Shown: one piece after another, positions 254 through 14,141 of the stretch
How the letters are laid out: every line of letters begins with the position of its first letter
How positions within the stretch are numbered: position 1 is the stretch's first letter
Origin: Streptomyces marispadix
GTDB lineage: Bacteria > Actinomycetota > Actinomycetes > Streptomycetales > Streptomycetaceae
Reading direction: 5' to 3'
DNA: 64,000 bases
Assembly (NCBI RefSeq): GCF_022524345.1
Contig: NZ_JAKWJU010000002.1
Span: 3,038,001-3,102,000 of the forward strand
Position numbers and translations under genes: made by a program
Notes under the pieces: model-generated
Databases searched by the model: none
Told to the model about the DNA's origin: nothing
The model's input: the letters and a program-made list of their open reading frames with translations, nothing else

Positions 254-1246
254 ATGGATGCGATCGAGGTCGACGGACTCAAACGGCGATACGCGAAGGG
301 CTTCGAAGCCGTGCGAGGCGTCTCGTTCTCCGTACGGGAGGGCGAGATCTTCGCGCTGCTGGGCACCAACGGAGCGGGCAAGACCTCCACTGTCGAACTG
401 CTGGAGGGCCTGGCGCGCCCCAGCGGCGGCAAGGTGAAGGTGCTCGGATTCGACCCGTATTCGGAACGCACCGCCGTGCGGCCCCGCACTGGCGTGATGC
501 TTCAGGAGGGCGGCTTTCCCTCGGAGTTGACGGTCACCGAGACGATTCGGATGTGGGCGGGCTGCACCAGCGACGCGCGTCCCATCCGTGAGGTGCTGGC
601 CCAGGTCGGGCTCTCCGACCGGCGTGCGAACGTACGCGTGAAGCAGCTCTCCGGCGGTGAACGGCGGCGACTGGACCTGGCGATGGCGCTCGTCGGGCAC
701 CCCGAGGTGCTCTTCCTGGACGAGCCGACCACCGGCATGGACCCCGAAGGGCGGCGCGACACCTGGGAGTTGGTGCGTGAGCTGCGCAGGGCGGGCACGA
801 CCGTGCTGCTGACCACGCACTATCTGGAGGAGGCCGAGGAGCTGGCCGACCGGCTGGCCATCATGCGCTCGGGGCGCATCGTCACCGCCGGCACTCCCGA
901 ACAGGTCGTCGCGGAGCGCCCGTCGAGCATCCGCTTCACGCTGCCGGCCGGTCTCGCGCCGCATCACCTTCCGCCGACGCTGCCGCCGGCCGCCGTCAAC
1001 GAGGGCGGTCGCGTGGAGATCCGTACGCCGCGGCTCCAGGACGCGCTCACCGATCTGCTGCTGTGGGCACGCCAGTCCGGGGTCGAGCTGCCGGGGCTGC
1101 ACGCCCGTACGGCCACGCTCGAGGAGGTCTTCCTGGAGATAGCGCAACGGCCGGAGGAGGAGACGGGCGAAGGCCAGGGGCCGGGCGGCGCCGCACCGAG
1201 CCAGGACGGCCCGGCCGGCGGCGAGATGGAGGTGGAGCGGGTATGA
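254..1246 (+). CDS. ABC transporter ATP-binding protein (ABC-2 type)
   Basis: This is the nucleotide-binding subunit that powers the permease encoded next, at the inner face of the membrane. Visible motifs are Walker A GTNGAGKTS (residues 37-45), the signature LSGGERRRLDLA (about 132), Walker B FLDEPTTGMDP (about 154) and an H-loop in TTHYLEEAEELA. A longer frame opens upstream, but the ATG at 254 has an AGGGA ribosome site and starts directly at the usual family N-terminus. The last 30 residues are rich in Gly, Glu and Pro. The stop overlaps the next start (ATGA). The four-gene context, with a sensor kinase and regulator, suggests an efflux system switched on by a membrane signal, for example drug or peptide stress. 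The substrate is unknown. Confidence 0.93.
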   Translation: MDAIEVDGLKRRYAKGFEAVRGVSFSVREGEIFALLGTNGAGKTSTVELLEGLARPSGGKVKVLGFDPYSERTAVRPRTGVMLQEGGFPSELTVTETIRMWAGCTSDARPIREVLAQVGLSDRRANVRVKQLSGGERRRLDLAMALVGHPEVLFLDEPTTGMDPEGRRDTWELVRELRRAGTTVLLTTHYLEEAEELADRLAIMRSGRIVTAGTPEQVVAERPSSIRFTLPAGLAPHHLPPTLPPAAVNEGGRVEIRTPRLQDALTDLLLWARQSGVELPGLHARTATLEEVFLEIAQRPEEETGEGQGPGGAAPSQDGPAGGEMEVERV

Positions 1247-2055
1247 GCACCACGGACGCGGCCACGGTCAAGGCACCGGGCAGGGTGGACACTTCGGCGA
1301 TGGGGCGGCGCCTGCGTGCCCTGGGACGAGCCGAGTTGACGCTGCTGATGCGCAACAAGGCGATGCTCTTCGTCGCACTCGCCACTCCCGTACTGCTCAC
1401 GATCCTGATGCGGCAGACGATCAGCGGCATGAACCTCAAGGGCACCGGCCTCTCGATGGGGACGGTGCTGATCCCGGGCTCGATCGGGTACGTGCTGGTC
1501 TTCGCCGTCTACGCCAATCTGACCGGCATCTACGTCACCCGGCGCGAGGAGCTGGTGCTGAAGCGGCTGCGCACCGGTGAGGCGAGCGACGGCGAGATCC
1601 TGACGGGCAGCGCGCTGCCGTCGCTGGTGCTGGCGCTCGGGCAGTGCGCGCTGCTGCTGGCCGGCGGTGCGGCCGTGCTCGACCTCGCCCCGCCGGAGCG
1701 GCCCGAACTCGTCGTCGCGGGCGTGCTGCTGGGACTGGTGCTGATGGTGCTGCTGGCCGCGGTGTCGGCCGCCTTCACACGGACCACGGAGGCGTCGCAG
1801 ATCACCACGTTCCCGTTCATGGCGATCTCTTTCGTGGGGTCCGGTGTCGTGGTCCCGCTGGATGTGATGCCGGACGCGCTCGCCAACGTGTGTTCCCTGC
1901 TGCCGGTGTCGCCGACCATGGAGCTGGTACGCAACGGCTGGGTGGGCACCCTGAGCGGCGCGGACACCGTCAAGGCACTCGTCGTGCTGGTGGTGTGGAT
2001 CGTCCTCGGCACGCTCGCCGTACGGCGCTGGTTCCCCTGGGAGCCGCGGCGGTAG
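1243..2055 (+). CDS. ABC-2 type transporter permease
   Basis: A 270-residue membrane subunit that pairs with the preceding ATPase. It begins MSTTDAATVK at the ATG overlapping the ATPase stop. After a polar N-terminus there is a first hydrophobic segment (MLFVALATPVLLTIL), then further segments around LVFAVYANLTG, LVLALGQCALLLAGG, VLLGLVLMVLLAAVSAAF, FPFMAISFVGSGVVVPL and a last one before the Arg-rich end. This is the six-segment plan of ABC-2 exporters. Translational coupling to the ATPase supports a 2+2 complex. The substrate cannot be told from sequence. Confidence 0.9.
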   Translation: MSTTDAATVKAPGRVDTSAMGRRLRALGRAELTLLMRNKAMLFVALATPVLLTILMRQTISGMNLKGTGLSMGTVLIPGSIGYVLVFAVYANLTGIYVTRREELVLKRLRTGEASDGEILTGSALPSLVLALGQCALLLAGGAAVLDLAPPERPELVVAGVLLGLVLMVLLAAVSAAFTRTTEASQITTFPFMAISFVGSGVVVPLDVMPDALANVCSLLPVSPTMELVRNGWVGTLSGADTVKALVVLVVWIVLGTLAVRRWFPWEPRR

Positions 2056-2079
2056 ACGGAGGACGAGGAGCATGGGCAC

Positions 2080-3498
2080 GTGATCGGCTGGTGGGTGTCC
2101 CCGAAGTACCGCCGCTGGCGGGAGCGCAGCAGCCACGAGCAGGTCGAGGCGTCGACGCGCTGGATGCTCGTGGCCTACGCCTGGGTCATCCTCATCGGCT
2201 TCGTCGCACAGCTCGTGCCCAACTCGGGCCCGGAGCCTCTGCCTTCGGCCCTCGCCTGGACCGTGCTCGGCATGGGCCTGGTGCAGTGCATGCTCTGTAC
2301 CGGCGTGCTGCACCAGGCCCTCGACAGTTATCTGGGGACGCGCACCGTCGGGCGCACACAGCTCGTCCTGCCCGCGTCGCTCGTCGGGGCGATGACCGCG
2401 CTGACCGTGGCGCTCGTCGCGCTGGACGCGGTCGAGGGCGCGCTGACCGTGGGGCTGGCGCTGTACGGGACGCTGGCGCCGTTCGCGGTGACTTTCGGCG
2501 TGGCGGTGCCGCGCCGTACGGCGGCGCTGGCGCTGTGCGGCTATATCGCCGCGGCACCGGCCGCACTGGCGGCGGCGGGGATGGAGTGGTCGCGGGTGCT
2601 GGCGGCGGCGATCGTGTCGGGGCTCGGCGGGCTCATCTCGGTGTTCACCGGGCGCTCCTCGGCCTGGTACATCGCCGTGATCAGGGAGCTTCAGGAGGCC
2701 AGGGGCGTACAGGCGAGGCTGGCGGTCGCCGAGGAGCGGCTGCGCTTCAGCCGCGATCTGCACGACGTGATGGGACGCAATCTCTCCGCGATCGCGCTCA
2801 AGAGCGAACTGGCGGCGCAGCTCGCCCAGCGCGGGACGTCCGCTGAGGCGTCCGTGGAGCAGATGACGCAGGTGCAGCGCATCGCCCGTGAGTCGCAGTC
2901 GGAGGTGCGTGCGGTGGTGCGCGGCTACCGCGAGGTGGATCTGCCGACCGAACTCGCGGGCGCCCGCGGGATTCTGCGCGCCGCCGGGGTGGACTGCCGT
3001 ACGGACAACGGCGGTTCGCGTCTTCCGGCACCCGTGCAGGCCGCGCTGGGCTGGGTCGTACGGGAGGGCGCGACGAATGTGCTGCGGCACGCGGACGCCA
3101 CGTGGTGCACAGTATGGGTGGGCACGGACTCCTCGGGCGGCAGTGCGCTGCTGGTCATGGAGAACGACGGTGTACGTGCCGGTCCGGGCGGCGGGCGCAG
3201 CGGCTCCGGGCTCGCGGGGCTGCGGGAGCGACTCGACGGGGTCGGGGGCACGCTGCGGGCCGAACGGGTCGGCGAGAGCGGTACGTTCCGGCTGAGGGCG
3301 GAGGTCCCGCTGGCGACGGCGCACGGCGCCGGAGGCGAGGCCGCGCCCGGCACCGACGGCGGCACTGGCACGGACGGCGGCGCCGGTACGGACGGCGGCG
3401 CGGGCAGCGGCAGCGGCAGCCGCAGCCGCAGTGGCACCCAGGCCGGTGACTCCGCGGAGCCCACCGGTGGTACGGACGGGAAGGACACGGCGGAGTGA
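2080..3498 (+). CDS. Two-component sensor histidine kinase (HisKA_3 / NarL class)
   Basis: A membrane sensor kinase of 472 residues. Start is the GTG at 2080, preceded by GGACGAGGAG; an ATG 8 bases earlier runs into a stop. The first 200 residues hold about six hydrophobic segments without a large extracellular loop, so the signal is probably sensed in the membrane. The dimerisation box RDLHDVMGRNLSAIALK carries the phospho-acceptor His228. An N-box (EGATNVLRHA) and a G-box (GSGLAGLRERL) of the HATPase follow. The tail beyond residue about 415 is a Gly/Thr/Ser repeat with no domain. The stop overlaps the response-regulator start. The partner is the next gene, and the likely output is control of the ABC genes in front. 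Confidence 0.92.
   Translation: MIGWWVSPKYRRWRERSSHEQVEASTRWMLVAYAWVILIGFVAQLVPNSGPEPLPSALAWTVLGMGLVQCMLCTGVLHQALDSYLGTRTVGRTQLVLPASLVGAMTALTVALVALDAVEGALTVGLALYGTLAPFAVTFGVAVPRRTAALALCGYIAAAPAALAAAGMEWSRVLAAAIVSGLGGLISVFTGRSSAWYIAVIRELQEARGVQARLAVAEERLRFSRDLHDVMGRNLSAIALKSELAAQLAQRGTSAEASVEQMTQVQRIARESQSEVRAVVRGYREVDLPTELAGARGILRAAGVDCRTDNGGSRLPAPVQAALGWVVREGATNVLRHADATWCTVWVGTDSSGGSALLVMENDGVRAGPGGGRSGSGLAGLRERLDGVGGTLRAERVGESGTFRLRAEVPLATAHGAGGEAAPGTDGGTGTDGGAGTDGGAGSGSGSRSRSGTQAGDSAEPTGGTDGKDTAE
3349..3402 (+). repeat. In-frame 18-bp tandem repeat in the kinase tail
   Basis: Three copies of an 18-base unit encode G-T-D-G-G-T/A near the C-terminus of the sensor kinase, followed by a GSGSGSRSRS stretch. 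This is a low-complexity linker. Copies differ mainly at third codon positions, so it is protein-coding repeat expansion with drift. Confidence 0.8.
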
Positions 3499-4274
3499 GC
3501 AGCGCGAACAGCGAGCCGGAGCGGGAAGGCGAGCGGGATTGCGTGCCCGGCTCCGGGCACGGCGGCGAAGCCGCATCCGGTGCCGCGGCCCACTCCGGGT
3601 CCGGGGCCGAGTCCGGTGCCAAGTCCAGCGCCGGGCCCGAGTCCGTGCCCGGCGGCCGGCCGCCCGGCACCATCCGCGTTCTGCTCGCCGACGACGAGCA
3701 TCTGATCCGGGGCGCGCTGGCCGCGCTTCTCGCGCTGGAGGAGGACCTGACGATCGTCGCCGAGGCGGCGTCCGGGCCTGAGGCGCTGGCGATGGCCCGC
3801 GCGAACGAACCCGACGTGGCCGTACTGGACTTGCAGATGCCGGGCGCGGACGGCGTGCAGGTCGCCACGGACCTGCGTGACGAACTGCCCTCGTGCCGGA
3901 CCATGATCGTGACCAGCCACGCCCGTCCGGGCCATCTCAAGCGCGCTCTCGCGGCAGGCGTCAGGGGCTTCGTCCCGAAGACCGCCTCCGCGCAGCAGCT
4001 CGCGGAGATCATCCGCAGCGTGCACGAGGGAACCCGTTACGTGGACCCGGAGTTGGCGGCCGACGCGATCAGCACTGGCGACTCCCCGCTGACGGCCCGC
4101 GAGGCCGAGCTGCTCGCCCTGGCGGCGAACGGCTCCCCCGTGGCGGAGATCGCCGAGCGCGTCTCGCTCACGCCCGGCACCGTACGCAACTACCTCTCGG
4201 CGGCGACCGCGAAGCTCGGTGCGGAGAACAGACACGCGGCGGCACGCATGGCGCGCGAGCGCGGCTGGCTCTGA
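3495..4274 (+). CDS. LuxR/NarL-family response regulator
   Basis: A 259-residue regulator whose GTG start overlaps the kinase stop (GTGA). Residues 1 to about 57 are an unusual Gly/Ser/Ala/Glu-rich extension without a domain. The receiver follows: acidic pair D66-D67 in LLADDEH, phospho-acceptor D112 in VAVLDLQMPG, and K162 in FVPKTAS. The C-terminal helix-turn-helix (LTAREAELLALAANG to the end) is of the LuxR type. It is likely to bind the inverted repeat at 177-200 and control its own operon; this is inferred from position only. Because the operon lies next to the RiPP cluster, it could serve as an immunity or stress-response module for that peptide, but no sequence proves this. Confidence 0.93.
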   Translation: MSSANSEPEREGERDCVPGSGHGGEAASGAAAHSGSGAESGAKSSAGPESVPGGRPPGTIRVLLADDEHLIRGALAALLALEEDLTIVAEAASGPEALAMARANEPDVAVLDLQMPGADGVQVATDLRDELPSCRTMIVTSHARPGHLKRALAAGVRGFVPKTASAQQLAEIIRSVHEGTRYVDPELAADAISTGDSPLTAREAELLALAANGSPVAEIAERVSLTPGTVRNYLSAATAKLGAENRHAAARMARERGWL

Positions 4275-4913: not shown

Positions 4914-5087
4914 ATGCTGGAAGAGAAGCTGAACCTGAAGATTCAGGACCAGCTCCACGAGGAGCACGCCGGCGAGATCGCCGAGGAAGCGGCTCCGGTC
5001 CTCGCCACCCCCGCTCTCGCGGGTGCCTTCGTCGGCGGTGCGGCCGTCGTGACCGGCGCGTACGCCGCCGGCAAGGCTGTCGGCTGA
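4914..5087 (+). CDS. Linaridin-type RiPP precursor peptide 1
   Basis: A 57-residue peptide with a good ribosome site (GGAGGA, 5-6 bases before the ATG). Residues 1-27 are a charged, Glu-rich leader (MLEEKLNLKIQDQL...). At residues 28-33 stands PVLATP, which fits the PxxxTP motif known from linaridin precursors. After it come 24 small and hydrophobic residues rich in Ala, Gly and Val, with a single Thr (T47), one Tyr, one Lys, no Cys and no Ser, ending AGKAVG. In cypemycin the mature peptide begins with the residue before TP. By analogy the product would start at Ala31, where the methyltransferase could dimethylate it. Being followed by a second precursor and linH/linL/linM/linT-like genes makes the assignment strong, though cleavage and modification are inferred. 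Confidence 0.85.
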   Translation: MLEEKLNLKIQDQLHEEHAGEIAEEAAPVLATPALAGAFVGGAAVVTGAYAAGKAVG

Positions 5088-5103
5088 CCACCGGCACGAC
5101 ACG

Positions 5104-5127
5104 CGGCCGGTCAACTCGGTCCGGCCG
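5104..5127 (+). other. Short hairpin between the two precursor genes
   Basis: Arms CGGCCGG (5104-5110) and CCGGCCG (5121-5127) enclose a 10-base loop in the 104-base gap between the precursors. It may stabilise or partly terminate the first precursor message. Evidence is the inverted repeat only. Confidence 0.35.
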
Positions 5128-5191
5128 TCGACCATTCGCCCTCCACGGGACAGCGGCGTTCCGTAGGGCTCAGAACAGAAGGAGTGCGCAC

Positions 5192-5371
5192 ATGATCGAT
5201 GTGACCTCGCACATCAACGAGTCGGCGGAGATCTCCGCCGTGGAGATCAACGACGCCGAGGGTGTCATCTTCACCGACTACACCCCGGTGATGGGCACCC
5301 CCGGCGCCTTCCTCGGCGGCGTCGCCATCGCCTCGGCGACGGTTGCCGCCTTCGAGCAGGGCAACAGCTGA
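5192..5371 (+). CDS. Linaridin-type RiPP precursor peptide 2
   Basis: A 59-residue peptide, ATG preceded by AAGGAG at 8 bases. The leader (residues 1-31) is acidic and contains AVEINDAEGVIFTDYT. PVMGTP at residues 32-37 again fits PxxxTP and aligns with PVLATP of precursor 1. The following 22 residues start GAFLGG, matching GAFVGG in precursor 1, and are mostly small and hydrophobic, with one Thr (T50) and two Ser, ending AFEQGNS. The leaders of the two precursors differ much more than the region around the motif. So the locus probably makes two related but distinct linear peptides with the same enzymes. By analogy with cypemycin the product would begin at Gly35. Confidence 0.83.
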   Translation: MIDVTSHINESAEISAVEINDAEGVIFTDYTPVMGTPGAFLGGVAIASATVAAFEQGNS

Positions 5372-5671
5372 TCCAGCCACTGAGCCACTGATCACGCGGC
5401 CTCGTGGTACCCCCTTCTACGCGGCCGTATGAGACGGGGCTCCGCCCGGTCGGCCGGTCCTGACACCGGCCGACCGGGTAACACCATCATCGATGAAGGT
5501 TTCTTTCAAGTCGGCCCAGACCAACTGCCGGTTATTTGCTCACTATTCCCCGATTCTCCGCAGTTGTCTTCGCGGCCGACGCGACCTCGACTTTCGCACC
5601 ACGCCCTCCCGTCATTCACCGCGACTCAGACCGCCACCCCCCACTCCGGGACCGGTACCGAGGAGACCGAC
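5372..5671. other. 300-base gap between precursor 2 and linH
   Basis: No gene is supported here. The hydrolase frame stays open upstream to 5429, but codon use is poor before 5672. The gap holds the strong hairpin at 5445-5478 and an AT-richer stretch just before the linH ribosome site. Confidence 0.6.
5445..5478 (+). terminator. 14-bp hairpin after the precursor genes
   Basis: Perfect 14-base arms (CCCGGTCGGCCGGT and its complement) enclose the 6-base loop CCTGAC, 74 bases after the second precursor stop. A leaky terminator at this place would keep precursor mRNA in excess over the enzyme mRNA, which is common in RiPP operons. No U-run follows, as is usual in Streptomyces. Confidence 0.65.
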
Positions 5672-7606
5672 GTGAAATCGCTTGCCAAAAAGCTGACCTC
5701 GACATTTCTCGGGCCGGTCCCGATCTCCCGTAGCCGTGCGCTTGCAATTTCCGAGCGGCTGACGGCGATGACTTCGCTCACATCGAGTCTCGAATACATC
5801 ACCCACCAGCGGCAGATACGCCGCGGAGGGCTCAACGACTGGACGATCGCGCGGAAGATGCACGCCTCGTCGACGCGTCCCACCAGGCGCTTTCTGGACG
5901 CCGTAGGAAATCAACGGACCACGCAGGCACTGCACATCGCGCGAATCGCGGCGAGCGCCGCGCTGCTCGCCCCCGGCAACTCCCGCTGGCGGGGCGCCGC
6001 CAACGTCTTTCTCGGCGTGAGCAACGCCGCCCTCTATCCGCGCCACCGCTACGGAACGGACGGCTCCGACCAGGTCTCCTCGTTCGTCCAGACGGCCGCC
6101 GGACTGGCCCGGCTCTCCACCCAACCCGCCGTCCAGGACGCGCTGTTGTGGTACGTGGCCCTACAGGCGAACCTGTCCTATCTGGTCTCCGGCTGGGTGA
6201 AGCTGCTGGGGCAGCCCTGGCGTGACGGCTCCGCGCTCAACGGCATCATGCGCACCCGTACCTACGGGCACGAGGGCCTGTGGAAGTTGACCAACCGCTA
6301 CCCGGTGCCCTCCCGTTATCTCGCGCACGGCGTGCTCGCCCTGGAGTGCCTGTTCCCAGTGGCGTACGCCAAAGGCGGTGCGCTGGCACGGCCGTTCATG
6401 GCGAGCGCCGCGGCCTTCCATCTGGCCAACGGCTACTTCATGGGCCTCGGCCGCTTCGTCACCGCCTTCGAGGCGATGCACCCGATGGTCGCCTACACCA
6501 GCGCGCCCAAGGACCACCCGGCGGTCGCGGGCCGCGACGACCGCATGCTGAAGGCCACCGCCTCCATGGCCGCCATCGGTGTGACCATTGCGGGTTTCCT
6601 CGCGGCGATGCGGAGGATGCGCGCCACCGACCCCTGGCCGCACGGCAAGGTGCTCACCAGCCGCCACGGCAACGAACTCCACTACAACGAGCGGATCTCC
6701 GACGACGAGAGGTCACCGGTGCTGGTGTTCGGTACCGGGATGATCTCCACGACGGAGCACTTCGGCTGGGTCACCGACAAGCTCGTCGAGGAGAGCGACT
6801 ACGGGATCATCACCTACAGCCGCGCCGGGTACGGGCCGAGCAAGCGCCGCAGCACAGGGCCGTACACCCTCCAGGAGTCGGTCGACGATCTGGTCGACCT
6901 GGTACGGGGGTCGGTGGCCGAGGGCCGCGACGTCTACCTCGCGGGGCACTCGCTCGGCGGTGAGATCGCACGCCGTGCGGCCGTCGAACTCGGCGGCCGC
7001 GTAAAGGGCGTGATCTACCTCGACAGTTCCCACCCGGACGAGCTGACCCGCTCCAAGCAGCAGCAGGAGGCCGCGGACCGGCTGAAGGACGGGCTGAACA
7101 TGTTCACGCGCAGCCTGCGGGCCGGGCTCGGTGCCACGCTCGTACGTCCCAAGTGGGTGCACGACCTGCCCGCGGAGGTACGCAGCCGGGCGTTCGCTCA
7201 GTACGCGGACAGCAAGCTGTGGCAGACCGGCATGCGCGAATGGGACGCCACGGAGGCCGACTTCCGCCGCTTCGAGGGGGACCTGCCGGCGATCGAGGCG
7301 CACGCGCTGGTGCTGTCGGCGCAGCGGACCGTCGACCGCGACCCCGAACAGCTCCTGATGCACAACGAGTTGGGCGCCGCACACCGCGGCGGGGGACGCG
7401 TCGTACACAACTCGGTGATCGAGGGCGCCGACCACGACACGATGCTCACGGACGCCCGCCTCGGCGGCGACGTGGGACGCCGGATTCTGGACTTCCTCCG
7501 CGAGGCGGAGGCCGCACAGGACGGCCGGGCCGGGAGCAGCCAGGCCGGGGGCGCCCGGAACAAGGGCGGTCAGTCCAAGGGGAACCAGTCCAAGGAGGCA
7601 CGATGA
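5672..7606 (+). CDS. linH: LinH-like membrane protein with C-terminal alpha/beta hydrolase domain
   Basis: A 644-residue protein. Start is the GTG at 5672 with AGGAG 7 bases before it; this gives VKSLAKKLTS as the N-terminus. Residues to about 330 hold several hydrophobic segments and resemble the HTTM / vitamin-K-carboxylase-like membrane fold. From about 340 an alpha/beta hydrolase begins (VLVFGTGM), with a nucleophile elbow GHSLG containing Ser427 and a likely catalytic His588 in EGADHDTM. This fusion is the hallmark architecture of CypH/LinH, needed for linaridin maturation and linked in the literature to dehydration or epimerisation of the precursor. The stop overlaps the linL start (ATGA), which fits a membrane complex of the two proteins. 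Confidence 0.87.
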   Translation: MKSLAKKLTSTFLGPVPISRSRALAISERLTAMTSLTSSLEYITHQRQIRRGGLNDWTIARKMHASSTRPTRRFLDAVGNQRTTQALHIARIAASAALLAPGNSRWRGAANVFLGVSNAALYPRHRYGTDGSDQVSSFVQTAAGLARLSTQPAVQDALLWYVALQANLSYLVSGWVKLLGQPWRDGSALNGIMRTRTYGHEGLWKLTNRYPVPSRYLAHGVLALECLFPVAYAKGGALARPFMASAAAFHLANGYFMGLGRFVTAFEAMHPMVAYTSAPKDHPAVAGRDDRMLKATASMAAIGVTIAGFLAAMRRMRATDPWPHGKVLTSRHGNELHYNERISDDERSPVLVFGTGMISTTEHFGWVTDKLVEESDYGIITYSRAGYGPSKRRSTGPYTLQESVDDLVDLVRGSVAEGRDVYLAGHSLGGEIARRAAVELGGRVKGVIYLDSSHPDELTRSKQQQEAADRLKDGLNMFTRSLRAGLGATLVRPKWVHDLPAEVRSRAFAQYADSKLWQTGMREWDATEADFRRFEGDLPAIEAHALVLSAQRTVDRDPEQLLMHNELGAAHRGGGRVVHNSVIEGADHDTMLTDARLGGDVGRRILDFLREAEAAQDGRAGSSQAGGARNKGGQSKGNQSKEAR

Positions 7607-8280
7607 CCACCACCCAGAGCGGAGCCCGTTCGGCTCTCTCCCGCGCCTTCACGGGACCGGGCGGCCTCACCCGGGCCGCCGGGGCGGCACTGCTGCTCGG
7701 CACGCTCTCGGCGCAGCATCCGAACCCGCTGTTCAACAGGGCGCAGAAGATGGACATCTTCTCGGCGCTCTTCCCCAACTGGCGCTTCTTCGCGCCCACT
7801 CCGGCGCAGCACGACTACCACATCCTCTACCGGACGCTGAACCACGAAGGCGAGACGTCCAGTTGGCGGATGGTCGAGGTGATCGTGGGCCGCAAGCTGA
7901 CGCAGATCTTCTGGTTCCCCGGACGCAGGCCCGAGAAGGCCGTCTTCGACATCGTCACCGAACTGACCACCCAGCTCGACAAGGGCTTCGGCGGGATGAA
8001 GAAGCTGCCCTCCTACCGAATGCTGGTCCGCTTCCTGCGCCAGCGCATCCGCGAGGACGGCGCGGCGGAGGGCGTGAAGGGCTTCCAGTTCACGCTCGTA
8101 CGGGCCACCGGCTACGAGGAGACCGATCCCGAGGTCGTCTTCGTCTCCCCGTACACCCCGATGACGGCACCGGACGAGTCGCAGGGCGACGGCGAGGGCG
8201 CCCTCGGCTCGGGGCGGCCGTCCTACGAATCCCACATACGCGACGACTCACGCGGGGAGGTTCCCGCACAACCGGCCTGA
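7603..8280 (+). CDS. linL: LinL-like linaridin maturation protein
   Basis: A 225-residue protein translationally coupled to the LinH-like gene. Residues 20-45 are hydrophobic (LTRAAGAALLLGTLSAQHPNP), then comes the motif NWRFFAPTP. Such a W-x-FFAP signature also occurs in DUF5819-type proteins that accompany HTTM membrane proteins. The rest is soluble-looking, and the last 50 residues are acidic and low-complexity. In cypemycin-type clusters a protein of about this size (CypL) always goes with CypH. Assignment rests on position, size and this partner; no enzymatic motif is visible. Confidence 0.78.
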   Translation: MTTTQSGARSALSRAFTGPGGLTRAAGAALLLGTLSAQHPNPLFNRAQKMDIFSALFPNWRFFAPTPAQHDYHILYRTLNHEGETSSWRMVEVIVGRKLTQIFWFPGRRPEKAVFDIVTELTTQLDKGFGGMKKLPSYRMLVRFLRQRIREDGAAEGVKGFQFTLVRATGYEETDPEVVFVSPYTPMTAPDESQGDGEGALGSGRPSYESHIRDDSRGEVPAQPA

Positions 8281-8299
8281 CCAGCCCCGGCCGGTCGCC

Positions 8300-8346
8300 C
8301 GGCCCGACCAGCCAGAGGCCCGACCAGCCCGAGGCCCGACCGGCCC
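8300..8346 (+). repeat. Three short direct repeats in the linL downstream gap
   Basis: Three neighbouring copies of about 15-16 bases share the core GGCCCGACC(A/G)GCC. They lie in the non-coding gap after linL. Function unknown; may be drift by slippage. Confidence 0.6.
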
Positions 8347-8429
8347 GAACCGCAGCACACGCACAGATGTCCGCCCCCGTACCCGAGGGGGCGGGTGAAC
8401 CGACTGATTCCCGGAAGGGGTCGATGCAC

Positions 8430-8522
8430 ATGTCCACCGGCTCGATCGTCATCTCCGTCATCGCCATCGTCATCGTCGCGGCCATCGCGCTGAACGTCTC
8501 CAAGAACAGCAAGAAGAAGTAA
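8430..8522 (+). CDS. 30-residue single-span cationic membrane peptide
   Basis: A very small gene inside the cluster. From the ATG at 8430 (GGAAGGGG ribosome site, 9 bases spacing; another in-frame ATG lies at 8424) it encodes a short polar start, a run of about 18 Ile/Val/Ala residues (SIVISVIAIVIVAAIAL) and a basic tail ending NSKKK. This is one membrane span with a positive-inside end. I know no family for it. It lacks the PxxxTP motif, so it is unlikely to be a third precursor of the same kind. Possible roles are a small subunit of the LinH/LinL membrane complex or of the exporter, or an immunity peptide. All are inferences from position. Confidence 0.65.
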   Translation: MSTGSIVISVIAIVIVAAIALNVSKNSKKK

Positions 8523-8628
8523 GCCGCACCGCCCGGCAGGCACTTCGGCACTCACGCAGTCAGGAAGCCGGCGGGCGCAAACGAAGCACAGCGGAAGGCC
8601 CGCACAACGAGACCGAGAGGGGGCCCTG

Positions 8629-9387
8629 ATGAGCTCTGTGGACGACATAGGCTACGGGCGGCAGTTCGGAGACTTCTACGACCGGATCTTTCCGAGCGGC
8701 GCCTACACCGAGCCGACCGTGGCCAAGCTCGCCTCCCTGCATCCCAGCCCCGGTGAACGCGCACTCGAACTCGGCGTGGGCACCGGCCGGGTGGCGATAC
8801 CCCTGGCCCAACGGGCCTTTCCCGTAAGGGGAGTCGACTCCTCGCCCGAGATGCTGGAACAGCTACGCACCAAGGCGAAGGAGGCGGACGCCGACGTCGA
8901 GGCGGTACACGGCGACATCCGCAAGTACACCGACGACGCGCGGTACGGACTCGTCTACTGCGTCTGCGCGACGTTCTCGATGATCCTCGACGCCGACGAC
9001 CAGCGGGCCGTCATGCAGCACGCCGCGGACCGGCTCGCCCCCGGCGGCACCCTCGTCGTCGAGACGTCCAACCCCGGCGGGCTGCGCGCCCTCCACGAGG
9101 GGCAGCAGCGCACCTCGTACTTCATCCCCTATCCGGAGCCCAACACCGGGCTGCTGACGTACTCCACGGTCTTCGAGGAGAAGAGCCTGTGGCACGCGTC
9201 GCACATCTGGTTCGAGGACGGCAAGTCCTCCGTCGGCTCCGAACTGGCCCGGCTCACCACGCCGGAGGAGGTGGACGAGTACGCGGCAGCCGCCGGCCTG
9301 AAGCCGGTCGACCGCTGGGCGGACTGGGAGGAGACGCCCTGGGCGGAGGACTCCCCCATGTTCGTCAGCACCTACACGGCGAGGTGA
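8629..9387 (+). CDS. linM: SAM-dependent methyltransferase (LinM-like alpha-N-methyltransferase)
   Basis: A 252-residue class I methyltransferase. Motif I is LELGVGTGR (46-54), the acidic end of strand 2 is in RGVDSSPEML, and a LAPGGTLVVET strand follows. The start has a strong GAGAGGGGG ribosome site. In linaridin clusters the methyltransferase dimethylates the free N-terminus of the mature peptide (CypM). Its place between the linL-like gene and the exporter supports that job here. Eight bases separate its stop from the exporter start, so they are co-translated. Another methylation target cannot be excluded. Confidence 0.84.
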   Translation: MSSVDDIGYGRQFGDFYDRIFPSGAYTEPTVAKLASLHPSPGERALELGVGTGRVAIPLAQRAFPVRGVDSSPEMLEQLRTKAKEADADVEAVHGDIRKYTDDARYGLVYCVCATFSMILDADDQRAVMQHAADRLAPGGTLVVETSNPGGLRALHEGQQRTSYFIPYPEPNTGLLTYSTVFEEKSLWHASHIWFEDGKSSVGSELARLTTPEEVDEYAAAAGLKPVDRWADWEETPWAEDSPMFVSTYTAR

Positions 9388-9394
9388 CCCAGGC

Positions 9395-11488
9395 ATGAGC
9401 AGCACCCTGGAGGCGAAGGACACGCAGGGCGCCCCGGACCCACCGGACGCGCCGGGCACGGGCGCCGGTCCGGACGCGGGCCCCGACGCCGGCGCCGGTA
9501 CGGGGACCGCGAGCGGCTCCCGTACCCTCCGCGCCGACGAACCGCTCGAGGCGCATCTGGGCCCCGCCCACGCACGCAGGCGGCGCGGCGGCAGCGGCCC
9601 GGCCGCCGTGTGGTACCTGGCGCGGCGCCACCGGGGTCTGCTCGCCGCGGGCATCGTGATCGGCCTGATCGGCGTGACGGCGCAGCTCGCGCAGCCGTAC
9701 GCGATCGGCGAGCTGATCAAACAGGCGGGCGCGAACAAGCCGCTGACGGTGGCGATCCTCGTCCTCGTGGGGCTGTTCTGCGTCGACGGCGCCTTCTCCG
9801 CGCTCCAGTCGTATCTGATCGGGCGTGCGGGCGAGAACGTCGTCTACGACGTGCGGCTGCTGCTCACCAAGCGGCTGCTGCGCGTCGACCTCGCCGCGTA
9901 CAGCAAGCAGCAGCAGGGCGACGTGCTGACTCGTACCGTCGCCGACACCTCGCTCGCGAAGATCGCACTGTCGCAGAGCCTCGCGCAGCTCGTGATCAAC
10001 GGGTTCACGGTGGTGGGCGGCGTCGTCGTGATGTTCCTGATCGACGTGTGGATGATGCTCATCACGCTGGCCTGCCTCGGCATCGCCAGCGGCGTCTCGC
10101 TGGTGCTGGCGCGCAGCGTGCGCCGGGCCGCCGTCGTCAACCGCGAGGACACCAGCGCCTACGGCTCCGACGTGCAGCGCGCGCTCTCGGCGCTGCCGAC
10201 GGTCAAGGCGTCCCGCGCGGAGGACCGCGAGACCCACCGCATCGGGCTGCTGGCCTGGCGGGCACGGAACTCGGGGGTGCGGGTCAACGGCCTCAACGCG
10301 CTGTTCATGCCGGCCATGAACGTCGGTACGCAGGCGGCGCTCGCCGTCGTCGTCGGCGTCGGCATGACCCGTGTGACCCGGGGGACGATGTCGATGGCGG
10401 ACCTCACCGCCTTCGTGATGTATCTCTTCTACATGGTCTCCCCGCTGGTGCTGTTCTTCCTGGCCATCGGCCAGTTCCAGCAGGGGCGTGCCGCGATCCG
10501 CAGGGTCGACGAACTCACCACCCTCCCGCAGGAGGGCGGCGTGCTCGACAGGATGCGGCACCGCCCGAAGCCGCCCGTCAAGTCGTCGCTGGCGGCCGAT
10601 GAGGACGCCGTCGAGTTCCGCTCCGTGCACTTCACCTACGGGGGCAAGGACGGCGCCGGCGGCGGAGAGGGCGAGGAAGGGGAGCAGGCCGCCGGGCCCG
10701 CCGAGACCCTCACCGACGTCACCTTCTCCGTGGCGTCCCGGGGAATGACCGCGGTGGTCGGCCCGTCCGGCGCCGGAAAGACCACGCTCTTCCAGCTCAT
10801 CGAGCGCTTCCACGCTCTGGACGCCGGAAGCATCACCGTCGGCGGCAAGGACATCGAGACGATGCCGCTGGCGACGCTGCGCGGACTCGTCGGCTACGTA
10901 CAGCAGGACACGGCGGCGATGCGCGGCACCGTGCGCGAGAACGTCGTCTACGCACAGCCCGACGCCCGCGAGGAGGACATCCGCGAGGTCATCGAGCTGG
11001 CAGGTCTCACCAAGGTCGTCGAGGAGCTGCCCGATGGGCTCGACACCGAACTGGGCGACCAGGGAAGCGGCCTGTCCGGCGGCCAGCGGCAGCGGCTGTG
11101 CATCGCACGCGCACTGCTTCAGAAGCCCGCGGTGCTGCTGCTCGACGAGGCGACCTCCCATCTGGACTCCGACTCCGAGCGCGAGTTCCGCGAGACGCTG
11201 CGCAAGGTCTCCGCTCGCTGCGCCGTCATCGCGATCGCGCACCGCATCTCGACCGTCGTCGACGCCGACATGATCGTGGTGATGAACGACGGCCGTGTGC
11301 AGGCCATCGGCAAGCACGACGAGCTGATGAAGCGGGACCCGCTCTACTACCGCCTCGCCAACTCCCAGCTCCAGGCGGCCACTTCGACCGCGTCCTGGCC
11401 CATGGACCCGTCCGGCGCCTCCGGTGCGCCCGGTTCGGCGGGTCCCGCTCCCCTGATGAACGGCGCCCCCGTGGGCGGCCCGCGGTGA
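9395..11488 (+). CDS. linT: ABC exporter, fused permease and ATPase (LinT-like)
   Basis: A 697-residue half-transporter that should work as a dimer. After an 80-residue Gly/Ala/Asp-rich N-terminus comes a six-span type IV exporter domain (about 75-390), then the ATPase domain: Walker A GPSGAGKTT (456-464), Q-loop GYVQQDTAAM, signature LSGGQRQRLCIARALL, Walker B VLLLDEATSHLD and switch His in IAIAHR. A Glu/Gly-rich insert (GAGGGEGEEGEQAAG) sits inside the first strands of the ATPase domain. There is no C39 peptidase domain, so leader removal must be done by another protease. Stop and next start overlap (GTGA). Likely role: export of the mature peptides. Confidence 0.88.
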   Translation: MSSTLEAKDTQGAPDPPDAPGTGAGPDAGPDAGAGTGTASGSRTLRADEPLEAHLGPAHARRRRGGSGPAAVWYLARRHRGLLAAGIVIGLIGVTAQLAQPYAIGELIKQAGANKPLTVAILVLVGLFCVDGAFSALQSYLIGRAGENVVYDVRLLLTKRLLRVDLAAYSKQQQGDVLTRTVADTSLAKIALSQSLAQLVINGFTVVGGVVVMFLIDVWMMLITLACLGIASGVSLVLARSVRRAAVVNREDTSAYGSDVQRALSALPTVKASRAEDRETHRIGLLAWRARNSGVRVNGLNALFMPAMNVGTQAALAVVVGVGMTRVTRGTMSMADLTAFVMYLFYMVSPLVLFFLAIGQFQQGRAAIRRVDELTTLPQEGGVLDRMRHRPKPPVKSSLAADEDAVEFRSVHFTYGGKDGAGGGEGEEGEQAAGPAETLTDVTFSVASRGMTAVVGPSGAGKTTLFQLIERFHALDAGSITVGGKDIETMPLATLRGLVGYVQQDTAAMRGTVRENVVYAQPDAREEDIREVIELAGLTKVVEELPDGLDTELGDQGSGLSGGQRQRLCIARALLQKPAVLLLDEATSHLDSDSEREFRETLRKVSARCAVIAIAHRISTVVDADMIVVMNDGRVQAIGKHDELMKRDPLYYRLANSQLQAATSTASWPMDPSGASGAPGSAGPAPLMNGAPVGGPR

Positions 11489-12951
11489 CCTCCACCGTCG
11501 ACGCGGCGGTCGTCGGCAGCGGGCCCAACGGCCTCGCGGCGGCGGTGACTCTGGCACGCGCGGGCCTGCGGGTCGAGATGCACGAGGCCGCGGACGTCGT
11601 CGGCGGCGGTCTGCGCTGCCAGTCCTACTTCGACGGCGACATCAGGCACGACGTGTGCTCGGCGGTCCATCCGATGGCCGCCGCGTCGCCGTTCTTCCGT
11701 GAGTTCGACCTGACGGCGCGAGGGGTCGAACTCCTCGCTCCGGAAGTCGGTTACGCACATCCCCTCGACGACGGGCGGGCCGGTCTCGCCTTCCCCGACC
11801 TGGACGCCACCTGCGACCACCTCGGCGAGGACGGCCCGCGCTGGCGGCAGCTCATGGAGCCGCTGCTCCAGCACAGCACCGGACTCGTCGACTTCTTCAT
11901 GGGCGGCCAGCGCTCACTGCCGGACGATCTCACCGCACCACTGCTGCTGGCGGCACGACTGCTGCCCCGGCGGCTGCTCCGCGGCTTCCGCGGCGACGTC
12001 GCCCCGGCACTGCTGACGGGAGTCGCCGCACACGCCGTGGGCAGGCTGCCGACCCTCGCCTCCGACGCCGTCGCGCTGCTGCTGGGGCATCTCGCACACG
12101 GCGCGGGCTGGCCGCTGCCACGCGGCGGCAGCGAACGCATCGCACATGTCATGGCCGACGACCTGCGGGCGCACGGCGGCACCATCCACACCGGTTCGCG
12201 CATCACTTCACTCGGCGAGCTGCGCCACGCTCGTGCCGTGCTGCTCGACACCGGGCCCGGCCAGTTGCTCGACCTCGCCGGGGACCGTCTTCCGTCGCTC
12301 TACGCACGGCAGTTGAGGCGTTTCCGCTACGGACCGGGCGCCGCGAAGGCCGACTTCCTCGTCTCCGAACCGATCCCGTGGACCAACCCGGAGGTGGGCC
12401 GCGCCGGCACCGTCCATCTCGGCGGCAGCCACACCGCGATCGCCCGGCAGGAGGGGCTGACGGTACGGGGCACACCCACCGGCGAGCCGTTCGTACTGCT
12501 CGTCGACCCCGCGGTCACCGACCCCGGACGTGCGCGCGACGGCAGGCGTCCCGTGTGGGCGTACGCACACGTGCCGAACGGCGATCCCCGCGATCCGGTC
12601 GCCCTCGTACGGTCACGCATCGAGAAGTACGCGCCCGGCTTCGGGGACACCGTGCTCGCCGCACGCGGCGTACCGGCCCGCGACTTGGACACGTACAACC
12701 CGAACTACGTGGGCGGCGACATCGGCGCGGGGGCGATGACTCTGTACCAGTCGCTGATGCGGCCCGTCGCACGCTTCGACCCCTGGCGCACGCCGCTGCC
12801 CGACGTCTTCCTGTGCTCGGCTTCGACACCGCCGGGGCCCGGTGTGCACGGCATGTGCGGTCATCTGGCGGCGCTCTCGGCGCTGCGCCACCGCTTCGGC
12901 ATCCGCCGGGCGCCGTCGCTGGAGCCGGTCGCCTCCGCGGCGGCACGCTGA
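11485..12951 (+). CDS. FAD-dependent oxidoreductase, phytoene desaturase-like
   Basis: A 488-residue flavoprotein starting at the GTG that overlaps the exporter stop. The N-terminus has the dinucleotide-binding fold with GSGPNG (residues 11-16) and the acidic strand end EMHEAADVVGGGLR, typical of the CrtI/amine-oxidase superfamily. The C-terminus has the second FAD-contact region (SASTPPGPGVHGMCGHLAA). Oxidoreductases of this type occur in some legonaridin-like (type B) linaridin clusters, where their exact role is not settled. Being coupled to the exporter gene makes it part of the operon. Candidate reactions are desaturation or oxidation of the peptide, but the substrate is inferred. Confidence 0.85.
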   Translation: MTSTVDAAVVGSGPNGLAAAVTLARAGLRVEMHEAADVVGGGLRCQSYFDGDIRHDVCSAVHPMAAASPFFREFDLTARGVELLAPEVGYAHPLDDGRAGLAFPDLDATCDHLGEDGPRWRQLMEPLLQHSTGLVDFFMGGQRSLPDDLTAPLLLAARLLPRRLLRGFRGDVAPALLTGVAAHAVGRLPTLASDAVALLLGHLAHGAGWPLPRGGSERIAHVMADDLRAHGGTIHTGSRITSLGELRHARAVLLDTGPGQLLDLAGDRLPSLYARQLRRFRYGPGAAKADFLVSEPIPWTNPEVGRAGTVHLGGSHTAIARQEGLTVRGTPTGEPFVLLVDPAVTDPGRARDGRRPVWAYAHVPNGDPRDPVALVRSRIEKYAPGFGDTVLAARGVPARDLDTYNPNYVGGDIGAGAMTLYQSLMRPVARFDPWRTPLPDVFLCSASTPPGPGVHGMCGHLAALSALRHRFGIRRAPSLEPVASAAAR

Positions 12952-13148
12952 GGGCGGGCGGGCCCCGGGGATCGCGGGGCAGGTCTCATCCGTGCGGCTG
13001 AACGGCCGTGCCCGTCCCCGTGGTTGAGCACCGCGGGCCGCACCGTGCCGGACCGCCCCCGTCTGCTGCCGCCGTGGGCTCGGCCCGTTGATCCGGCTCC
13101 AGATCCCGGCTCGGACCGCAGCCAGATCCCCAGCTCGTGACCCCGCTC

Positions 13149-14141
13149 TCAGATCCAGCCGCGCTCCCTGGCGAGCAGCGCCGCCTGCGGCCGGTTGCCG
13201 GCGCCGAGGAGCTGCATCAGGTCCGCGATATAGCGACGGTAGGTACGTACGGAGACGCCCAGGTCGCGGGCGCCCGCCTCGTCCTTGCCGCCGGAGCACA
13301 TGGCACGCAGCACCATCCGCTCCAGTTCGGAGGGCGCGTTCTCCTCGGTCCGCCACTCGCCGAGCAGCGTGCCCAGGTCCTCCGACTCGGCCCAGATCGA
13401 CTCGAACAGCGCGAGGATGTTGGAGACCAGCCCGCTCTCCTGCGCGAACAGCGCGCCACGCGCGGTGTCTTCGGGGTCCACGGGCACCACAGCGGTACGG
13501 CGGTCGTACATCTGGATCTTCGCCGTCGTATGGGTCACGAGCCTCACACGCGCCCCGTGCGACTCCAGTTCGCGCAGATACGCCACCGTGGGCGCATGGT
13601 CGAGGGCCTTGCGGACCAGGACCGTACGGACCGAGAGTCCTCTGCGCAGACAGCGCAGCACACGCGGGCGTGCCTGGTCGATCTCGTCCTGCCGCAGCGC
13701 GACGCCGGGTTCGACGACGGCGACCTCCTCACGGGCGAAGAAGGCCAAGTCGTCTATGCGGTCGCGGATCTTCGGCGGGTCGGTGACCTGCTCGATGCCG
13801 ACGACGGCCGGTTCGCGCTCCTCGCCGCGCTCCGCGCGCAGCGACGCCACCAACGGCTGGAGCTGGGTGACCCGTTGCAGCTTCTCATGCAGTTCGTGCA
13901 GCCGCAGATCGAGGAGCCTGGCCACGGCGACGTCCGGATCGGCCGCCGCGAGCCCGTCCGCCTGTCTGCGGAGCAGGCCGAGTTCACGCAGTCTGCGAAG
14001 CTCTCTCCGTGCCGCGTTCGGGGGCAGCCGGAGCTGGTCGATGAGGCCGTCGAGACCTATACCGGGCTCTCTCAGACAAAGCCGGTAGATATGTTCCTGC
14101 TCCTCGGTGAGACCGAGATACGACATCTCGTTCGTACCCAA
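13149..14141 (-). CDS. TrmB/LuxR-like transcriptional regulator
   Basis: A 330-residue regulator, convergent with the cluster. The N-terminus (SYLGLTEEQEHIYRLCLREP...) resembles the TrmB-type winged helix. A middle domain with DRRTAVVPVD is like the effector domains of this group. The C-terminus (ERMVLRAMCSGGKDEAG... ending RERGWI) is a LuxR-type helix-turn-helix. Start: TTG at 14141 has AGGGGGA at 8 bases; the ATG at 14126 is an alternative with a weaker site. This architecture is common in actinobacterial pathway-specific regulators, so control of the RiPP operon is likely. No binding-site pair shared with the precursor promoter was found by eye. Confidence 0.85.
   Translation of the reverse strand: MGTNEMSYLGLTEEQEHIYRLCLREPGIGLDGLIDQLRLPPNAARRELRRLRELGLLRRQADGLAAADPDVAVARLLDLRLHELHEKLQRVTQLQPLVASLRAERGEEREPAVVGIEQVTDPPKIRDRIDDLAFFAREEVAVVEPGVALRQDEIDQARPRVLRCLRRGLSVRTVLVRKALDHAPTVAYLRELESHGARVRLVTHTTAKIQMYDRRTAVVPVDPEDTARGALFAQESGLVSNILALFESIWAESEDLGTLLGEWRTEENAPSELERMVLRAMCSGGKDEAGARDLGVSVRTYRRYIADLMQLLGAGNRPQAALLARERGWI

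Follow-up and report, generated by a model that had tools for sequence, protein, structure and literature searches.

Two precursor genes in a linaridin-type cluster of Streptomyces marispadix: a possible two-component peptide system

Why a linaridin-type gene cluster carries two precursor genes, and whether their products work together, is the question raised by a stretch of Streptomyces marispadix DNA of 64,000 nucleotides (the window, positions 3038001-3102000 of a 6.7 Mb genome; all coordinates below are window positions). The analysis reported here makes it probable that the cluster belongs to a clade of paired-precursor linaridins, whose two peptides, A1 and A2, possibly act as two components. 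Membership in the linaridin family is well supported and the maturation of both peptides by one enzyme set is consistent with the data, while joint action of A1 and A2 is what we infer from the many related clusters that keep a matched pair, which suggests that the peptides may work together. If true, such a clade would bring two-component members into the linaridin class, for which the papers cited here count five members described in detail before corynaridin (PMC9927463) and yunnanaridins A-C added since (PMC12299652). No prior report of paired linaridins was found in the open-licence literature, a scope outside which three main linaridin papers lie.

The genes that carry the argument are listed below, where linaridin_RiPP loci are those with a match to the curated linaridin precursor model NF033402.

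4914..5087, + strand: precursor A1, 57 amino acids (aa), motif PVLATP, predicted core from Ala34 (24 aa)
5192..5371, + strand: precursor A2, 59 aa, motif PVMGTP, predicted core from Gly38 (22 aa)
5672..7606, + strand: H, fusion of an N-terminal membrane domain (LinG/HTTM counterpart) with an alpha/beta hydrolase (LinE counterpart; PF12697, 4.9e-16)
7603..8280, + strand: L, LinL-type partner (weak DUF5819 match, PF19136, E 0.0011, under cut-off)
8629..9387, + strand: M, S-adenosylmethionine methyltransferase, predicted to carry out alpha-N-dimethylation (Protein Data Bank matches YunM and CypM)
9395..11488, + strand: T, ATP-binding cassette (ABC) exporter (PF00664, PF00005; no peptidase domain match)
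11485..12951, + strand: X, FAD oxidoreductase, perhaps of LinC type (68-69% identity in linaridin_RiPP loci)

The original prediction of two small genes, each with a PxxxTP motif and a hydrophobic core, holds at both positions, and a full five-base ribosome-site match precedes each gene. The filter used for precursor-like open reading frames (ORFs) gave 109 matches in the 248 kb that precede H genes. On the minus strand it gave 36 over 1603 kb, and on the rest of the plus strand 29 over 1355 kb, some of these 29 being real. However, the cores had been predicted to start at Ala31 and Gly35, two residues that are themselves part of the motif; PxxxTP is followed by Ala34 in A1 and by Gly38 in A2, a shift of three. 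The cores end in Gly and Ser, and neither contains Cys. Among seven strains, that of the window and six close to it (counted over 21 pairs, which are non-independent), codon differences in the A1 core are 102 synonymous and 0 nonsynonymous, and this core is under purifying selection. Among the listed precursor homologues that carry a source name, with names visible in part, these read hypothetical or uncharacterized, bacteriocin twice and acetyltransferase once, and the label linaridin is absent.

Are these linaridin genes? The check proposed earlier, a search with NF033402, placed neither precursor over the cut-off: A1 gives no match and A2 reaches E 0.069, 13.2 bits vs a cut-off of 35. In 392 genomes of the genus this model has five matches, three of them over cut-off, with zero matches in the own genome and likewise none in 14 control genomes. 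Then, the assignment to linaridins is made because the enzymes have counterparts around linaridin_RiPP matches, the precursors themselves being under the model cut-off. Four linaridin_RiPP loci were compared, the three over cut-off and one at 28.6 bits: X has a counterpart in all four (68-69%), as does L (30-33%, 6e-19 to 1e-12), and M has counterparts in three of the four (25-54%). T matches at 29-62%, and H does so with its membrane half at 31-33% (1e-29 to 4e-33) and more weakly with its hydrolase half at 25-32% (6e-5 to 8e-9). The two halves of H match separate genes there. The fifth match (22.9 bits) has no window-protein match within its 3.1 kb. Moreover, Streptomyces sp. CT34 and S. noursei have one NF033402 match each, with the full enzyme set around it and X at 69% in both, so that the predicted linaridin-type class stands on H, L, M, T and X homologues in these two loci, with gaps in the four others.

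A hidden Markov model (HMM) of the precursors, trained only on 80 loci and the window with the linaridin_RiPP loci left out, finds, at lower stringency, the precursors of the four linaridin_RiPP loci (6.8e-8, 1.9e-5, 3.2e-4 and 1.2e-3) and those of CT34 and S. noursei (9.2e-5 and 5.9e-6). Also, the cluster contains a LinL-type protein, an HTTM-like membrane protein with an alpha/beta hydrolase, the PxxxTP leader motif and, in M, a predicted CypM-type alpha-N-methyltransferase gene as in N-methylated linaridins. The marks of class A linaridins, a CypD-type decarboxylase and a C-terminal Cys, are missing; for the first, the Pfam scan of the cluster proteins matched no such flavoprotein family, in line with the original prediction. 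Daptides were considered as another class, because NF041820 is the best NCBIfam match of M (83 bits vs a cut-off of 175), and were rejected: no aminotransferase or alcohol dehydrogenase match was obtained and no decarboxylase, and the cores end in Gly or Ser, not in Thr.

The Pfam scan recovered the gene set described earlier (H fusion, partner, methyltransferase, ABC exporter, flavin oxidoreductase and regulator), and a stop/start overlap is confirmed in H and L, which share ATGA. The nearest relatives of the window H protein are from Streptomyces. Its N-terminal half has no Pfam model match at E up to 1 and no match to an HTTM family model either. In the hydrolase half, Ser427, Asp587 and His588 are invariant in 16 of 16 aligned rows, and Ser427 of GHSLG together with the downstream His is also kept in the three linaridin_RiPP loci inspected. 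As the cluster showed no further protease, this half is a candidate leader peptidase. For M, the closest solved structure is YunM (7wzf, 6e-89), followed by CcbJ and the cypemycin methyltransferase CypM (7wzg, 1.9e-13). X may be of the LinC type, a name found in the title of a 2023 paper.

How often, then, does such a cluster carry two precursors? At E up to 1e-20, relatives of one or both H halves are present in 59 of the 392 genomes, a count that takes in the own genome. Of the 121 loci gathered, window included, 22 near-identical ones were removed (L070 was restored for the tail analysis described below), leaving 99; subtraction of the four linaridin_RiPP and three distant loci left 92, and an upstream stretch of 1 kb or more was available for 87 of these. 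The membrane domain is present in 92 of 92, the loci having been gathered by H, and L in 87 of 92. Precursors were counted by HMM; seven that scored worse than E 1e-3 were dropped, as were five whose core could not be parsed, and one ORF each in L058 and L080 looks like out-of-frame noise. PxxxTP is present in 131 of 154 family precursors, although the HMM seeds had been picked for this motif. The original prediction held two precursors in one linaridin locus to be unusual; however, at least two are found in 60 of the 87 loci, which makes this the commonest state of the clade, and 40 of these 60 have exactly two. A longer single small ORF with PTLGTP is present instead in at least six of the 92 loci (L030, L031, L035, L036, L041 and L042); in L030, L031 and L042, from the S. 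scabiei group, this longer precursor lies upstream of H, has an Ala-rich tail of about 60 residues and replaces the pair. In the membrane-domain tree, from which three of the 99 loci were left off because of a short H, the window falls in a clade of 29 rows (support 98/99), 23 of them with two or more precursors, and the four linaridin_RiPP rows are set apart by long branches.

The two precursors also keep their order. A1 and A2 HMMs from ten near loci were applied to 44 of the 52 clusters outside that group, loci with precursors on another strand or after H being left out. In 36 of the 44 clusters the first precursor resembles A1 more closely than the last one does; the first scores as A1-like in 32 clusters and the last as A2-like in 33. 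In L084 an A1 and an A2 precede H, and another A1/A2 pair lies between T and X, at 5868 and 6088 after the H start. Moreover, over 51 clusters the core distances of A1 and A2 correlate at 0.78, and the partial Mantel correlation of A1 with A2 given H is 0.47, with 0 of 2000 permutations reaching it. Finally, in 61 cores below 50% identity to each other, GxxxG occurs 53 times vs 28.9 (standard deviation 4.6) in shuffled cores, an enrichment of about 1.8-fold that 0 of 1000 shuffles reach, whereas GxxG is not enriched in the thinned cores (20 vs 30.0 shuffled).

A separate observation concerns the C-terminal tails. When the tails of precursors from one cluster were compared, their best match ranked among the top 5% of foreign matches in 14 of 60 clusters, where 3 are expected. 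Such tail-sharing clusters include L058, L059, L049, L055, L070, L027, L062 and L063, and the tails differ between sister clusters whose cores look orthologous: L058 has GSKQPS/GSKQPN five times vs NKER in L059, and L049 has THPTLPHA three times. Gene conversion as the origin of shared tails is disfavoured, because the Ser codons in L058 differ (AGT, AGC and TCG), an informal comparison in which other copies are near-identical in codons. A shared tail was not seen in the A1/A2 pair of the window.

What the enzymes could do to the cores depends on their composition. The linaridin modifications described in the literature are dehydration of Thr, dimethylation of the N-terminus, the presence of D-residues and, for class A, aminovinyl-cysteine (AviCys) (PMC9927463, PMC10373908); multiple D-residues are reported in characterised linaridins, and the L-type gene grmL, which may encode an epimerase, was indispensable in one case (PMC10373908). 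Each window core has one Thr, kept in all ten pairs of the window's group I, and therefore one dehydration per peptide is possible. Among 149 cores, Thr is absent in 31, where dehydrobutyrine (Dhb), the linaridin mark, is therefore impossible; both Ser and Thr are absent in 11, for which any dehydration is therefore impossible. These 11 cores are material to test whether H and L do work other than dehydration; as proof of a second H/L job they were dropped, because every locus has Ser or Thr in at least one of its parsed cores.

In the pathway proposed here, all of whose chemical steps we infer, the ribosome would make A1 and A2, and both leaders would recruit a common membrane enzyme, H-L, in which the HTTM-like and hydrolase domains and the LinL partner would edit the hydrophobic cores. 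Proteolysis after PxxxTP, for which the hydrolase domain is the candidate, would free Ala34 of A1 and Gly38 of A2. M would then dimethylate the new N-termini, X would oxidise some site, and T would export peptides of 24 and 22 residues. These would most likely act on membranes together, packing via their GxxxG faces, and an ABC/two-component module upstream of A1, perhaps with a small peptide S, would serve as self-protection.

Several findings weigh against the paired-precursor reading. Neither precursor exceeds the curated linaridin_RiPP cut-off, and the Thr-free and Ser/Thr-free cores are a further difficulty. The precursor HMM finds none in 21 of the 87 loci and one in 6. Three to five precursors occur in 20 of the 60 multi-precursor loci, which are therefore a poor fit to a strict 1:1 partnership, and the A1-then-A2 order is broken in 8 of 44 clusters. 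The A2 core of the same seven strains shows 66 synonymous and 32 nonsynonymous differences (again non-independent pairwise counts). Also, the i/i+4 pattern of GxxxG suits an alpha helix, a conformation hard to reconcile with many D-residues. A longer single small ORF with PTLGTP is present instead in at least six of the 92 loci (L030, L031, L035, L036, L041 and L042); in L030, L031 and L042, from the S. scabiei group, this longer precursor lies upstream of H, has an Ala-rich tail of about 60 residues and replaces the pair.

A bolder form of the paired-precursor reading is tentative, and we would sooner expect it to fail than to hold: two modified, N,N-dimethylated transmembrane peptides would form one pore via their GxxxG faces, and in some members a cluster-specific C-terminal tag, common to all precursors of the cluster and changing in concert, would act as a code for self/non-self or for pairing, with a protein of the cluster as its reader. 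Somewhat less likely still is that one enzyme set serves two independent linaridins, duplicated precursors having diverged to separate products that have separate targets and do not act jointly. Loci with as many as three to five precursors, and the eight with a broken order, would be expected then, and the single precursor that the same kind of search gave in each of the six linaridin_RiPP loci (the four, CT34 and S. noursei) indicates that one peptide can suffice. However, independent products would not account for the order kept in 36 of 44 clusters, the co-divergence beyond that of H, or the second A1/A2 pair in L084.

It is improbable that the peptides are unmodified or barely modified two-peptide bacteriocins like those of class IIb, which the linaridin enzymes would merely cap and export. 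The GxxxG enrichment and the Thr-poor cores would suit them, and one homologue is named 'Class IIb bacteriocin' and another 'Bacteriocin' at the source; nonetheless, L is retained in 87 of 92 loci and the catalytic residues of H in all 16 rows, the leaders have PxxxTP rather than a double-Gly motif, and T is without a peptidase domain match. Hardly credible is a regulator, chaperone or immunity peptide in the place of one product, since, for all that leaders and C-termini differ and evolution is faster in the core of A2 than in that of A1, both proteins share the plan of leader, motif and hydrophobic core and match one precursor HMM (seeded with both).

Around the genes of the paired-precursor cluster, further genes make it wider than described earlier by the addition of S and of the ABC/two-component module (254-4274).

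254..1246, + strand: DrrA-type ABC ATPase, likely part of an immunity/response module (TIGR01188, 1.7e-69, 234 bits, under cut-off 312)
1243..2055, + strand: assigned from its position and sequence as an ABC-2 type permease partner (conserved neighbour; no NCBIfam match at 1e-10)
2080..3498, + strand: sensor histidine kinase, by sequence and position (conserved; no NCBIfam match at 1e-10)
3495..4274, + strand: NarL/LuxR-type response regulator (PF00072, 1.8e-24; PF00196, 5.3e-13)
8424..8522, + strand: S, 32-aa single-span basic membrane peptide with a KKK end, between L and M
13149..14141, - strand: R, LuxR-type helix-turn-helix regulator, convergent (PF00196, 4.1e-5, at its cut-off)

The four-gene module accompanies the precursor pair in 13 of the 99 loci, window included, some loci having short flanks. 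Three arrangements of it occur: on the same strand, on the opposite strand and, in L018, split. Of 68 loci examined for an ORF between L and M, 14 (the window among them) have an S-like one and nine further loci a different hydrophobic one; an immunity or accessory role of S is possible. R has a match at 1e-3 in 24 of the 92 family loci, window included. The downstream neighbour, purC, was taken as the cluster edge.

Class IIb bacteriocins consist of two paired hydrophobic peptides with GxxxG, as in the window pair; unlike them, the latter has no double-Gly leader and is accompanied by modification enzymes. The class A linaridins (cypemycin, grisemycin and salinipeptins) share with the window a CypM-related N-terminal methyltransferase, and CypH of class A is a fused H protein like that of the window, whereas the CypD decarboxylase and the C-terminal Cys of this class are both missing here. 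The corynaridin cluster, as described in its paper, resembles the window in PxxxTP, the HTTM protein, the alpha/beta hydrolase, LinL, the ABC transporter and the lack of a decarboxylase, and differs in having one precursor with seven Thr, no methyltransferase and an oxidoreductase of the short-chain dehydrogenase/reductase (SDR) type (PMC9927463). The yunnanaridins are linaridins whose paper, according to a review, studied LinC oxidoreductases (PMC12299652); the window M is closest to the solved YunM, which presumably belongs to the yunnanaridins.

Streptomyces sp. CT34 is named as the legonaridin producer in PMC11705897. A second locus of this strain, L043, has at about 9730 homologues of H (52%) and L (45%) that adjoin a different, Ser/Thr-containing small ORF of 53 aa, with no M, T or X match; H and L may serve another peptide class there. 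L043 was rejected as the legonaridin cluster, because the small ORF there is unlike the expected one and the genome has its linaridin_RiPP match at another place. That cluster would instead be the locus of the match, L174, legonaridin-type and of class B, whose identities to the window are 63% for T, 69% for X, 55% for M, 25% for E, 28% for L (3e-15) and 31% for G. Its precursor is found by the HMM of the window clade; however, L174 has one precursor, richer in Thr, and keeps as separate genes the E and G that are fused in the window.

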